A model generated the notes under the pieces. It saw only the letters and a program-made list of their open reading frames with translations, was not told the DNA's origin and searched no databases. From Acidobacteriaceae bacterium (GTDB taxonomy: Bacteria > Acidobacteriota > Terriglobia > Terriglobales > Acidobacteriaceae): a stretch of 34,222 nucleotides of DNA. Each line of letters opens with the position of its first letter. Positions within the stretch are counted from its first letter, which is position 1. Below are positions 2,154 through 10,152 of this stretch, in pieces. The stretch lies in assembly GCA_003162935.1 (NCBI GenBank), contig PLUW01000070.1, forward strand, positions 18,565 to 52,786, written 5' to 3'. The translations under genes and the position numbers were made by a program.

Positions 2154-3659
2154 ATGGGTATCGCACCTTCCCCAATCCAGATTGATTCACGCGTCACCGA
2201 CTTCATCGCGAAGCCGCGCAAAATGCTGATCGACGGCAAGTGGGTGAATGCCGTGTCGGGCAAGACTTTTCCAACCTACAACCCAGCCACCGGCGAAGTG
2301 CTGGCGCAAGTAGCCGAAGGCGATCGTGCGGACATTGACCTGGCCGTGAAAGCCGCGCGCAAGGCCTTCGACAGCGGGCCGTGGTCGCGGATGACGGCCT
2401 CCGAGCGCGGCAAGCTGGTATGGAAGCTCGCCGACCTGCTCGAAGAGCACATGGAAGAATTCGCGACGTTAGAAACACTCGATAACGGCAAGCCGCTGAC
2501 GGTGGCGCGCGCCGCCGACGTGCCGCTCGCCGTCGACTTGTTCCGCTACATGGCGGGATGGGCGACCAAGCTCGAAGGCACAACCATTCCGCTTTCCGTG
2601 CCTTACACGCCCGGCGCAATCTACCACGCCTATACGCTCCGCGAACCGGTCGGCGTCGTGGGCCAGATTATTCCCTGGAATTTTCCGCTGCTGATGGCGG
2701 CGTGGAAATTGGGCCCCGCGCTGGCCTCGGGCTGCACCGTCGTGCTGAAGCCGGCCGAGCAAACACCACTCTCGGCGCTGCGTCTGGGCGAGTTGTTCGC
2801 CGAAGCCGGATTCCCGGACGGCGTGGTCAACATCGTCCCGGGATACGGCGAGACAGCGGGCGCGGCTCTAGCCGCCCACGACCTGGTCGACAAAATTGCG
2901 TTCACCGGATCCACCGAAGTGGGCAAACTGATTGTTCACGCGGCCACCGGAAATTTGAAAAAAGTCTCGCTTGAACTGGGGGGCAAATCTCCGAACGTAG
3001 TCTTCAAAGATGCCGACATGGACGCCGCCATTGCCGGCGCGGCCAGCGCCATCTTCTTCAATCACGGGCAGTGTTGCTGCGCCGGGTCGCGTCTGTACGT
3101 CGAGCGGCCGGCGTTCGATCGCGTAGTTGAGGGCGTGGCTTCAAAGGCGAAAAAAATCAAGGTAGGATCGGGACTCGATCCGGCGACACACATGGGCCCG
3201 CTGGTCTCCGAAGAGCAGTTGCAGCGCGTATGCAATTACCTCGAAATCGGAATGGCCGAAGGCGCCAAGGCCGCGTCAGGCGGCCGCAGGATCGATGGCA
3301 AGGGATACTTCGTCGAGCCCACCGTGTTGGTCGAGACCAAAGACTACATGAAGGTCGTGCAGGAAGAGATCTTCGGGCCGGTGGTGGCGGCGATCCCATT
3401 CGACAATCCAGAAGAGCTGCTGACTCGGGCGAACGATTCGGTCTATGGCTTGGCCGCGGGAATCTGGACCCACGACGTGTCGAAGGCGCACCGGACCGCG
3501 GCATTGCTGCGCGCCGGGACTGTCTGGATCAACTGCTACAACATCTTCGACGCGGCACTGCCGTTTGGCGGGTACAAGCAGTCGGGTTGGGGACGCGAGA
3601 TGGGCAAGGACGTTCTCAATCTCTACACGCAGACCAAGGCGGTCTGCACGCGATTGTAG
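2154..3659 (+). CDS. NAD(P)+-dependent aldehyde dehydrogenase
   Basis: ALDH family motifs: GQIIPWNFPLLMAAWKLGPALASGCTVVLKPAEQTP, FTGSTEVGK, LELGGKSPN, FNHGQCCCAGSR, EEIFGPV, PFGGYKQSG; strong SD aaggagga at 2143-2150. Confidence 0.95.
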   Translation: MGIAPSPIQIDSRVTDFIAKPRKMLIDGKWVNAVSGKTFPTYNPATGEVLAQVAEGDRADIDLAVKAARKAFDSGPWSRMTASERGKLVWKLADLLEEHMEEFATLETLDNGKPLTVARAADVPLAVDLFRYMAGWATKLEGTTIPLSVPYTPGAIYHAYTLREPVGVVGQIIPWNFPLLMAAWKLGPALASGCTVVLKPAEQTPLSALRLGELFAEAGFPDGVVNIVPGYGETAGAALAAHDLVDKIAFTGSTEVGKLIVHAATGNLKKVSLELGGKSPNVVFKDADMDAAIAGAASAIFFNHGQCCCAGSRLYVERPAFDRVVEGVASKAKKIKVGSGLDPATHMGPLVSEEQLQRVCNYLEIGMAEGAKAASGGRRIDGKGYFVEPTVLVETKDYMKVVQEEIFGPVVAAIPFDNPEELLTRANDSVYGLAAGIWTHDVSKAHRTAALLRAGTVWINCYNIFDAALPFGGYKQSGWGREMGKDVLNLYTQTKAVCTRL

Positions 3660-4273: not shown

Positions 4274-4696
4274 ATGCAACGCAAAGCAAGCGCAGTATGG
4301 AAGGGCGGCCTGAAAGACGGGCAGGGGACGGTATCGTCCGCCAGCGGCATTCTTTCGAACACGAAGTATTCGTTCACCACGCGGTTTGAAGACGCTCCGG
4401 GGACGAACCCAGAAGAATTGATTGCGGCGGCGCACGCGGCGTGTTTTTCAATGGCGCTGTCGGCGCAATTGGGAGGCGCGAACCTGAAGCCGGAGAGCAT
4501 CAGCACGTCCGCCACGCTCACCATGGATAAGCTCGAGGCGGGCTGGGCGATCACGGCCGTTCATCTCGACGTGGTTGCCAAGGTGCCGGGCGCGAGCGCG
4601 GAAGCCTTCAACACCGCGGCTCAAAATGCCAAGGCGGGCTGCCCGGTATCGAAGGTGCTGAACGCGAAGATTACGATGGACGCGAAGCTGGGTTAG
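4274..4696 (+). CDS. osmC: OsmC/Ohr family peroxiredoxin
   Basis: Full-length OsmC-like: KASAVWKGGLKDGQGTVSS...GTNPEELIAAAHAACFSMALS...AKAGCPVSKVL; both conserved cysteines present. Confidence 0.92.
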   Translation: MQRKASAVWKGGLKDGQGTVSSASGILSNTKYSFTTRFEDAPGTNPEELIAAAHAACFSMALSAQLGGANLKPESISTSATLTMDKLEAGWAITAVHLDVVAKVPGASAEAFNTAAQNAKAGCPVSKVLNAKITMDAKLG

Positions 4697-4713
4697 CCAC
4701 CAAAAGTGTACGT

Positions 4714-4739
4714 ACAAATGTTTCACGTGAAACATTTGT
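4714..4739. promoter_or_regulatory. parS: parS centromere-like site (TGTTTCACGTGAAACA at 4719-4734) within a 26-bp perfect palindrome
   Basis: acaaatgtttcac|gtgaaacatttgt is a perfect palindrome whose central 16 bp match the canonical ParB-binding parS sequence. Confidence 0.85.
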
Positions 4740-4936
4740 TAATGTACTTTCGTACGTACAGTATTATACGTAAATTCGCCGCACCGGAAACATAAGAAAC
4801 GGGTTATGCCCCAGCGGAGGGCAGCGCGGCGGGCGGGCATCCGGCGCCGTTCGTTTGACAGGCGGATGCTGGCCGTTAGATATTAGAGTAGTCCCCGTGA
4901 AAAAGGGCCTGCCGAGCTTTTTTGCTTTTCTCTGAT

Positions 4937-5023
4937 GCGGATATGGCGGAACTGGCAGACGCGCTAGGTTCAGGACCTAGTGATCGCAAGGTCGTGGAGG
5001 TTCAAGTCCTCTTATCCGCACCA
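4937..5023 (+). tRNA. tRNA-Leu (CAG)
   Basis: gcggatatggcggaactggcagacgcgctaggttcaggacctagtgatcgcaaggtcgtggaggttcaagtcctcttatccgcacca: 7-bp acceptor GCGGATA/TATCCGC, anticodon stem ctagg/cctag with CAG, long variable arm, encoded CCA. Confidence 0.96.
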
Positions 5024-5026
5024 AAA

Positions 5027-5061
5027 CCAGCTGTCAGCTCTCAGTTATCAGCTCTCAGTTA
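5027..5061. repeat. Oligo-word intergenic repeat (agctgtcagctctcagttatcagctctcagtt)
   Basis: Tandem reiteration of CAGCTCTCAGTT-like words between tRNA-Leu and the response regulator stop codon; same words recur at 3724-3750 and 20188-20301. Confidence 0.75.
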
Positions 5062-5063
5062 AA

Positions 5064-6482
5064 TCACGCACCGGCCGATAGCCGGTGCGTGCTGCGGCTT
5101 TGGGCGATGCCGTACTGGCGAATCTTATAGAGAAGCGCTTTGTAGCTGATCTTAAGCAGCACGGCGGCTTGTTTGCGATTCCAGTTTGTCTCTTCCAGGG
5201 CGCGGGCGATGGCTTCCGCTTCGGCTCCGTCTTTCGCGTTACGCGACAGCGACTTCAGGCCGCCGCCAGACTCCGCGCCAGCGACTGCGCTTCTGCCTTC
5301 GACGTGCGCTCCTCCACCGCCATCGGGCCGGGGCTGCAATTCGGACGCGGCCAGAGTTTCGTCTCCCAGAACGAGGTAGCGTTTGATGAAGTTGCTGAGC
5401 TCGCGCAAGTTGCCGGGCCAGTTGTGGCGGAGACATGCCTCCATCAACGGAGGCGAAAGCGGCAACGGGGAACGGGCGTAGGACTCCGACATGCGCGACA
5501 TGAAATGTTTCAGGAGGATCGGGATTTCTTCCTTGCGCTCGCGCAGCGGAGGCAGCGACATAGTGAACGCGTTCAAGCGGTAGTAAAGATCTTCCCGCAG
5601 GCTCTTGTTGGCGAGCGCTTCGGGGATATCGATGTTGGTGGCGGCCAGGATGCGCACGTCGACCTTGACCATGGTGCGGCTGCCGAGGCGCGAGAAAGTC
5701 TGGTCCTGAAGGACGTGTAAAAGCTTGGCCTGCAACCCCGCCGGCATTTCTCCGATTTCGTCGAGCAGGATGGTGCCTTTGTTGCAGATCTCGAACTTGC
5801 CGGGCTTGGCGTGGGTGGCGCCGGTAAACGCTCCCGCCTCGTAGCCGAAGAGCTCGCTTTCGAGCAGGTCGGCGGGCACGGCCGCGCAGTTCACTTTGAG
5901 GAAGGTGCGGTGGGCGCGCGGAGATAGTTTGTGGATCAGGCGGGCGAGCACTTCCTTGCCGGTGCCGCTTTCGCCGAGAAGCAACACTGGGATGTCGACG
6001 TTGGCGACGAGCGCGGCTTGCGATCGAATCTTCTTCATCGCCGGGCTGGCGGCAATGAAAAACACGTCGTCGCAAAGCTCTTCGACTTCGCCAGCGTAGC
6101 TTTCAGCTTTGGCCGTGCCGATGCACTGTCCAATGACCGCGTCGAGTTCGGCCTTCTGAAACGGCTTGGTCAGATAGTCGATGGCGCCCAGGCGCATGGC
6201 CTGCACGACTTTGCGCGTGTCATTCACGCACGAGAGCATGACAACCTTCAATCCGGGCTTCAGGTGGCGGAGTTGTTCGAGAGTCTGCAAGCCATCGATG
6301 CCGGGCATGAGCAGATCGAGCAGCACCAGATCCGGTTGCAGCCCTTTGCGAACGTGCTCGACGGCTTCTTCGCCGGTGCTGGCGGTTTGAACTTTGTGCT
6401 CATCCACTTCCAACAGGGTGCGGATGTAGCGCAGCATTCCCGGTTCGTCATCCACCAGCAGGATGTTGGCGGCTTCGCTCAT
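5064..6482 (-). CDS. Sigma54-dependent response regulator (NtrC/AtoC type: REC-AAA+-Fis HTH)
   Basis: MSEAANILLVDDEPGML...DLVLLDLLMPGIDG...YLTKPF receiver; GESGTGKEV Walker A, GAFTGA loop, WNRKQAAVLLKISYKALLYKIRQYGI HTH. Start chosen at 6482, overlapping the upstream kinase stop. Confidence 0.95.
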   Translation of the reverse strand: MSEAANILLVDDEPGMLRYIRTLLEVDEHKVQTASTGEEAVEHVRKGLQPDLVLLDLLMPGIDGLQTLEQLRHLKPGLKVVMLSCVNDTRKVVQAMRLGAIDYLTKPFQKAELDAVIGQCIGTAKAESYAGEVEELCDDVFFIAASPAMKKIRSQAALVANVDIPVLLLGESGTGKEVLARLIHKLSPRAHRTFLKVNCAAVPADLLESELFGYEAGAFTGATHAKPGKFEICNKGTILLDEIGEMPAGLQAKLLHVLQDQTFSRLGSRTMVKVDVRILAATNIDIPEALANKSLREDLYYRLNAFTMSLPPLRERKEEIPILLKHFMSRMSESYARSPLPLSPPLMEACLRHNWPGNLRELSNFIKRYLVLGDETLAASELQPRPDGGGGAHVEGRSAVAGAESGGGLKSLSRNAKDGAEAEAIARALEETNWNRKQAAVLLKISYKALLYKIRQYGIAQSRSTHRLSAGA

Positions 6483-9412: not shown

Positions 9413-9542
9413 GCGAGACATCGGATCATCGGGCCATCGCTTGCCGTAAACGGACTTCTGTCCAACGACCGCCGCACCTAGTCCCACCTGCGCCGACTTC
9501 CCGTGCCGGACGCGCGCCAATTTCCTCTTGATCGGCAGTATT

Positions 9543-9556
9543 GTGTATTGCTACAC
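9543..9556. promoter_or_regulatory. Candidate HigA operator GTGTA-ttgc-TACAC
   Basis: Perfect 5-bp inverted repeat with 4-nt spacer, 8 bp upstream of the toxin ATG. Confidence 0.45.
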
Positions 9557-9563
9557 TTTACAC

Positions 9564-9842
9564 ATGCTCAAGGGCTATCGGCACAAGGGCATCAAGCAGT
9601 TTGCCGAGACCGGCTCGAAGGCTGGCATTCAACCGGAACACGCAACCCGTCTCCGAAGGCTGTTATCCGCCTTGGATGCGGCGACCTGCCCAGCCAATAT
9701 GAATGCGCCCGGGTACGTACTGCATCCGCTCAAAGGCGAACTGGCGGGGCACTGGGCGGTGCGGGTGAGCGGGAACTGGCGGCTCACGTTTGCGTTCGAG
9801 GGCGAGGACGCGATTCTCGTCGATTACAAGGATTACCACTAG
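9564..9842 (+). CDS. higB: HigB-like toxin (RelE/ParE superfamily)
   Basis: MLKGYRHKGIKQFAETGSKAGIQPEHATRLRRLLSALDAAT...LHPLKGELAGHWAVRVSGNWRLTFAFEGEDAILVDYKDYH, typical HigB pattern, immediately upstream of a HigA-like gene. Confidence 0.92.
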   Translation: MLKGYRHKGIKQFAETGSKAGIQPEHATRLRRLLSALDAATCPANMNAPGYVLHPLKGELAGHWAVRVSGNWRLTFAFEGEDAILVDYKDYH

Positions 9843-9852
9843 GAGACCGACT

Positions 9853-10152
9853 ATGCTTTTCCATCCATCCCACCCCGGCGAAGTTTTGAAGGACTATCTG
9901 GGCGACATGACGGTGAAGGAGGCGGCCAAGCGCTTGGGAGTGACGCGGCCAAATCTCTCCCGGATACTGAACGGCCGCGCCGGTATTTCAGCGGTGATGA
10001 GCGTGCGCCTGGCAAAGGCAATGCCGTACACGTCCCCTGAGTTTTGGCTAAAGATGCAGCTTAGTTACGATCTTTGGAAGGCCCAAAAGAATAGGCTGCC
10101 GAAGATCAGGCCGTTTCCGGTCCGGCTGCAAAAGAGCCTTGCCTCGGCCTGA
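9853..10152 (+). CDS. higA: HigA-like antitoxin (XRE family HTH)
   Basis: HPGEVLKDYLGDMTVKEAAKRLGVTRPNLSRILNGRAGISAVMSVRLAKAMPYTSPEFWLKMQLSYDLWKAQ; SD aggag upstream. Confidence 0.92.
   Translation: MLFHPSHPGEVLKDYLGDMTVKEAAKRLGVTRPNLSRILNGRAGISAVMSVRLAKAMPYTSPEFWLKMQLSYDLWKAQKNRLPKIRPFPVRLQKSLASA

Follow-up and report, generated by a model that had tools for sequence, protein, structure and literature searches.

The ParB/parS systems are among the most conserved segregation systems of bacteria. The parS of plasmid P1 contains an internal IHF site together with two kinds of ParB box. The closest described relatives of the locus reported here are the chromosomal parS sites of the ParB/Spo0J class, such as those of Bacillus subtilis and Caulobacter crescentus, which share its consensus core and in which parAB is located by rsmG with several parS sites, with further copies present. 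Known chromosomal parS copies reside mostly in the ori domain, that is, within about 20% of the chromosome around oriC (PMC7022226, Table 1), and the reason for this clustering has yet to be settled (PMC7333895). Two other classes of short sites are relevant for comparison, namely the Noc-binding sites (NBS) with the consensus TATTTCCCGGGAAATA (PMC7383237) and the operators of the B. subtilis GntR family regulator AraR, with the consensus At(T/A)tGTaCGTAcaa(A/T)T (PMC4218819).

Here we describe a parS site from an Acidobacteriaceae bacterium that is flanked by short repeated boxes. The preferred reading, to which we assign a probability of roughly two in three, is that the approximately 65 bp between positions 4707 and 4773 form a composite element in which a parS core of the host ParABS system is accompanied on both sides by in-register TGTACRTACA boxes that would be read by a second factor.

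A parS site beside osmC and its cognate ParABS system

The window, i.e., the entire stretch of 34,222 nucleotides analyzed, comes from a draft genome (G000; 3.64 Mb in 123 contigs, 83% complete) and contains the 16-mer TGTTTCACGTGAAACA between osmC and a tRNA-Leu gene (Table 1). An earlier note on this sequence had described the 16-mer as extended by 5 bp of palindrome on each side, and this description is accurate: together they make up a perfect 26-bp palindrome, at a distance of 22 bp to the end of osmC and of 202 bp to the tRNA gene. The outermost bases of the palindrome are shared with the left satellite box, at the inner edge of the latter, and with TTTGT in the right flank. The note also called the site isolated, which holds within the window, where it is the single match even when up to three mismatches are allowed (mean of 0.08 in shuffled sequences), and fails genome-wide, where there are about a dozen copies. 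Specifically, the search of the G000 genome yielded 10 exact copies, two with one mismatch and one with two mismatches, compared with none at up to one mismatch for a reversed control pattern. Three exact copies are located at parAB, and the other seven exact and both one-mismatch copies lie elsewhere; eight contigs besides the one with parAB carry an exact or one-mismatch parS. The palindromic extension at the window site is the longest among all these copies.

Table 1 Features of the parS locus and its neighbors in the window
Feature	Position	Strand	Basis or remark
parS core TGTTTCACGTGAAACA	4719-4734	.	exact match; both arms switched at the orthologous site of G011
perfect 26-bp palindrome ACAAATGTTTCAC/GTGAAACATTTGT	4714-4739	.	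read from sequence
left satellite box TGTACGTACA	4707-4716	.	+4 slot from parS edge
partial satellite box TGTAC	4743-4747	.	sequence; motif class
right satellite box CGTACGTACA	4751-4760	.	+18 slot; orthologous site of G011 has GTACATAC
outer satellite box TTATACGTAA	4764-4773	.	orthologous site of G011 keeps TTATACGTA
osmC (OsmC family peroxiredoxin), upstream neighbor	4274-4696	+	TIGR03562, 196 bits
tRNA-Leu (cag), downstream neighbor	4937-5023	+	

A palindrome of 26 bp can fold as an RNA hairpin and could in principle terminate the transcription of osmC or act as an RNA element of this gene. However, the region 4600-5100 contains no terminator-like site, that is, no GC-rich hairpin followed by a run of T, in agreement with the earlier note, which had considered a terminator less likely on account of the missing U-tract; there is no Rfam match either, and what is retained in many other copies, between unrelated genes, is the parS core and not the length of the hairpin. 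We therefore regard this explanation as scarcely credible. Elsewhere in the window, CAGCTCTCAGTTAT-type words are repeated right after the tRNA-Leu gene (5030-5062), and two overlapping short open reading frames (9528-10152, plus strand) resemble, by sequence, a HigB/HigA-type toxin-antitoxin pair.

The 16-mer is an exact match to TGTTNCACGTGAAACA, the 16-bp palindrome that defines the parS class. On contig C116 of the same genome, the order of genes and sites is rsmG, three exact parS, parA and parB, which identifies the system as a chromosomal ParABS of the usual kind. The ParB protein (400 aa) consists of the Pfam domains ParB_N, HTH_ParB and ParB_C, scores 154 bits with TIGR00180, and produces its best PDB matches to Noc, Spo0J and ParB. 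Its gene (L114:7859-9058, minus strand) encodes an insertion of about 40 residues (residues about 147-188) before the GERR motif that is absent from the aligned ParBs of congeners. A TIGR00180 search of the draft genome detected a single ParB-family locus. The possibility that the palindrome is a Noc-binding site was discarded, given that its core is parS and not the NBS consensus and that the draft yielded no further gene of the ParB family. The earlier note had taken the 16-mer for the canonical parS of a chromosomal ParB and had made this dependent on, among other things, a parB gene; one is present in G000, with parB and parA by rsmG next to three parS sites, and the identification is further upheld by the co-variation described below. 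That positions 4719-4734 are a parS of the host's chromosomal ParABS system is thus well supported by the genomic comparison, and the site is probably functional and occupied by ParB.

Co-variation of parS and ParB

Members of the genus use mainly TGTTTCACGTGAAACA (hereinafter, TTTC-type) or TGTTCCACGTGGAACA (TTCC-type) as parS, and the TTCC variant occurs also in Pseudomonas aeruginosa and Myxococcus xanthus. Site type and ParB recognition helix vary together, and residues of this helix set the specificity of ParB and Noc (Jalal et al., PMC7383237). The helix is SREQVSN in the TTTC-type ParBs (G000, G004, G006, G007, G008) and SRETVSN, SRSAVSN, SRETVTN or DRASVAN in the TTCC-type ParBs (G001, G002, G010, G011, G256, G155; the type of G010 was assigned from its parS copy counts). 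Accordingly, one residue is Q in the former versus T, A or S in the latter, in a comparison of five clear TTTC-type and six TTCC-type ParBs that are phylogenetically non-independent. One genome, G009, encodes two ParBs (L153, L165), one of each kind, with the helices SREQVSN and SRETVSN.

The switch can be followed at the window site itself. At the orthologous position between osmC and tRNA-Leu in the congener G011, both arms of the palindrome have changed to TGTTCCACGTGGAACA while the two boxes on the right have been kept (Table 1). Other distal sites, i.e., those away from parAB, also occupy orthologous positions in different species, such sites not being independent counts. The symmetric change of the arms in step with ParB supports the view that the distal sites are likely to be used in vivo. 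In the TTTC-type genome G000, contig C72 (L117:7594-7640) harbors a degenerate TTCC-type parS, TGTTCCACATGGAACG, with a TTGTACGTACA box on either side; it is possibly an unconverted relic.

Phased boxes beside the distal parS sites

The earlier note, correct on the identity of parS, overlooked the satellite boxes that flank the palindrome on both sides. In G000, the distal parS sites carry TGTACRTACA or TATACGTA boxes nearby whereas the three parAB-proximal sites do not. The inner motif GTACRTAC was counted 10 times in the 1403 bp around the distal sites versus 4 times in 175,752 bp of sampled sequence further off, which makes it approximately 300-fold denser at the former, and it is absent (0 occurrences) beside the parS copies at parAB in G000, G006 and G012. 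The same pattern is found at many sites in G005, G006, G007, G011, G012 and other genomes, regardless of whether ParB is of the TTTC or the TTCC type. In an unbiased count over 180 flanks, the top 6-mers were TACATA, ATGTAC, ACGTAC and CGTACA, with enrichments of 84-fold for TACATA and 44-fold for ATGTAC, and of 55-fold for TACGTA.

The boxes are also in register with the core. Of 134 boxes, 79 have the start of GTAC at +3-5, +17-19 or +31-33 from the edge of parS, as opposed to a maximum of 39 in 20,000 random placements, in a test that overstates significance because it was run on the very data from which the slots had been picked. Distances between boxes peak at 4, 14, 18 and 28 bp and reveal the same 14-bp period with parS left out of account. 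The window site conforms to this register, its left box being at +4 and its right box at +18.

The boxes consist of alternating pyrimidines and purines, and the frequency of TA steps is raised, features that could indicate a flexible or easily unwound TA-rich patch which would aid closure of the ParB clamp or loading of SMC with no second protein involved. Against such a purely mechanical role, specific GTAC-containing 6-mers are enriched approximately 30-50 fold and occupy a preferred register, and the motif that takes the place of the boxes in G008 (see below) is a different, non-alternating one at a fixed spacing; we consider this possibility quite unlikely. Even less probable, in our estimate, is that the window contains a plain origin-proximal parS and that the boxes are what is left of a dispersed repeat by which parS was copied to other places in the genome. 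Flanking words are indeed common to many copies, but the likeness is limited to short motifs that vary in side and number, several sites are orthologous between species, and the boxes were kept when the parS allele changed. A mobile repeat was rejected on the same grounds of short shared motifs and orthologous loci.

Specificity of the boxes and a replaced motif

A search of six genomes for TTGTACRTACA showed that the boxes are nearly exclusive to distal parS. Of the ten boxes away from known parS that we read, nine are single copies within open frames of 202-987 codons, and the tenth, on contig C54 of G006, belongs to a half-parS with several boxes. Conversely, recognizable boxes are lacking at two distal sites with intact cores (L066 in G007 and L097 in G002) and in G003, and G008 mostly has another motif in their place: three distal sites without boxes (L062-L064, with parS at 3001) share CTAAGTCCTTTGTTT exactly 11 bp from parS, and L063, one of the three, has as its ortholog in G006 a site with boxes. 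Such an exchange of one motif for another, at a fixed spacing, suggests a change in a trans-acting factor.

The scarcity of boxes without a parS core is also what one would expect if parS is ordinary and ParB itself reads the boxes, as weak secondary sites that extend its nucleation platform. In favor of this possibility, the centers of the box (TACGTA) and of parS (CACGTG) share ACGT, the center of the first box is 14-16 bp from that of parS, close to the 14-bp period of the boxes, and the P. aeruginosa ParB is known to bind half-parS motifs (PMC7022226). Nevertheless, the boxes are identical across genomes with TTTC-type and TTCC-type ParBs and absent at the parAB-proximal sites, and a direct comparison of the box with the parS half-site shows agreement at only 4 of 8 positions. 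Direct reading by ParB hence appears unlikely, if worth keeping in mind.

We favor the composite element, with a second factor, because the boxes are sequence-specific, in register and nearly exclusive to parS, and are replaced in G008. Under this model, ParB would load at the parS core, which is the simplest reading of that part of the element, and a second sequence-specific factor, most likely a DNA-binding protein that is cooperative on arrays, would occupy the boxes and, at these additional sites, hold, limit or anchor the ParB clamp or its partners, with a conceivable effect on segregation. More tentatively, and at somewhat less than even odds, the genus might possess two classes of centromere sites: plain parS by parAB, and composite parS with a phased TGTACRTACA array and a putative partner protein that would work with ParB as a distributed, co-evolving loading system over much of the chromosome.

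Distribution outside the genus

The pattern parS-N1-4-GTAC was detected in 18 of 299 genomes that sample, rather than exhaust, the class: G000, its congener G256 and 16 others. All 16 matches outside the genus were read, and the majority can be put down to chance, their core being degenerate. The core is intact in four of them (G267, G212, G279 and G181), and G279 alone has a box-like word (TGTACGTA) beside it. In this genome, which belongs to another family, the intact parS (L131) lies beside AAAAGTACTGTACGTA; no other site found outside the genus resembles the box arrangement. In G155, a single-contig genome from another genus, five parS sites lie within 0.74 kb and there is one further one-mismatch match.

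Chromosomal position of the distal sites

The earlier note considered the window to be probably near the origin. In the near-complete genome of the congener G256, dnaA is located at 73.6 kb and parAB at 102 kb of contig C12, and the distal parS sites are at 364 and 641 kb of the same contig, at 38.8 kb of C1 and at 1.65 Mb of C10. The proteins encoded beside the parS sites of G000 map to seven large G256 contigs (C1, C8, C10, C12, C18, C25 and C27), which argues for dispersal of the distal parS sites across the chromosome, to the extent that positions can be transferred between the two genomes. Gene order is only partly kept, osmC and its aldehyde dehydrogenase neighbor being on different G256 contigs; in the best case, the parS sites of G011 and G002 span 19-21% of the genome; and the GC skew of the G256 stretches is too noisy to map the origin. 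With a draft genome, parS on eight contigs besides that of parAB, and the seven-contig spread, origin proximity of the window thus finds no support; nor is an origin bias disproved, gene order being only partly kept.

Comparison with known systems

The flanking box motif beside distal parS appears to be new, and a partial search of the literature brought up no description of a phased array of this kind beside parS. A genus in which parS has been multiplied and perhaps widely spread, and in which a second phased motif is under apparent selection, amounts to a natural experiment on the limits of ParB loading sites. It offers matched species pairs with independent changes in the parS/ParB allele and in the satellite motif, and the composite-element reading predicts a specific partner factor that should be findable.

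The locus resembles the P1 parS in that both would be composite centromeres for ParB and a second DNA-binding protein, the latter being a prediction in the present case. The P1 site, however, belongs to a plasmid and has an IHF bend between ParB boxes, whereas the parS described here is a full chromosomal one, surrounded by an external array of 14-bp period. The known parS sites of the ParB/Spo0J class differ in being mostly confined to the ori domain (PMC7022226) and, in the literature searched, in having no phased box array, as opposed to the box-bearing and perhaps widely scattered distal copies of the present genus.

The satellite box TTTGTACGTACAAA matches the core of the AraR operator, the palindrome tGTaCGTAca being present in the left box at 4707-4716, and AraR also binds paired boxes cooperatively. 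Since the box matches this core (PMC4218819), a GntR-type protein can be considered as a candidate reader of the boxes, although strictly as a lead: AraR sites are found in arabinose promoters, whereas the boxes here lie beside parS in mixed gene contexts and not in sugar-utilization promoters. Finally, unlike at NBS, the core of the present sites is parS itself and a single ParB-family locus was found in G000, but the two kinds of sites are alike in being dispersed short motifs for a dedicated protein, putative in the present case, that is tied to chromosome segregation or division.
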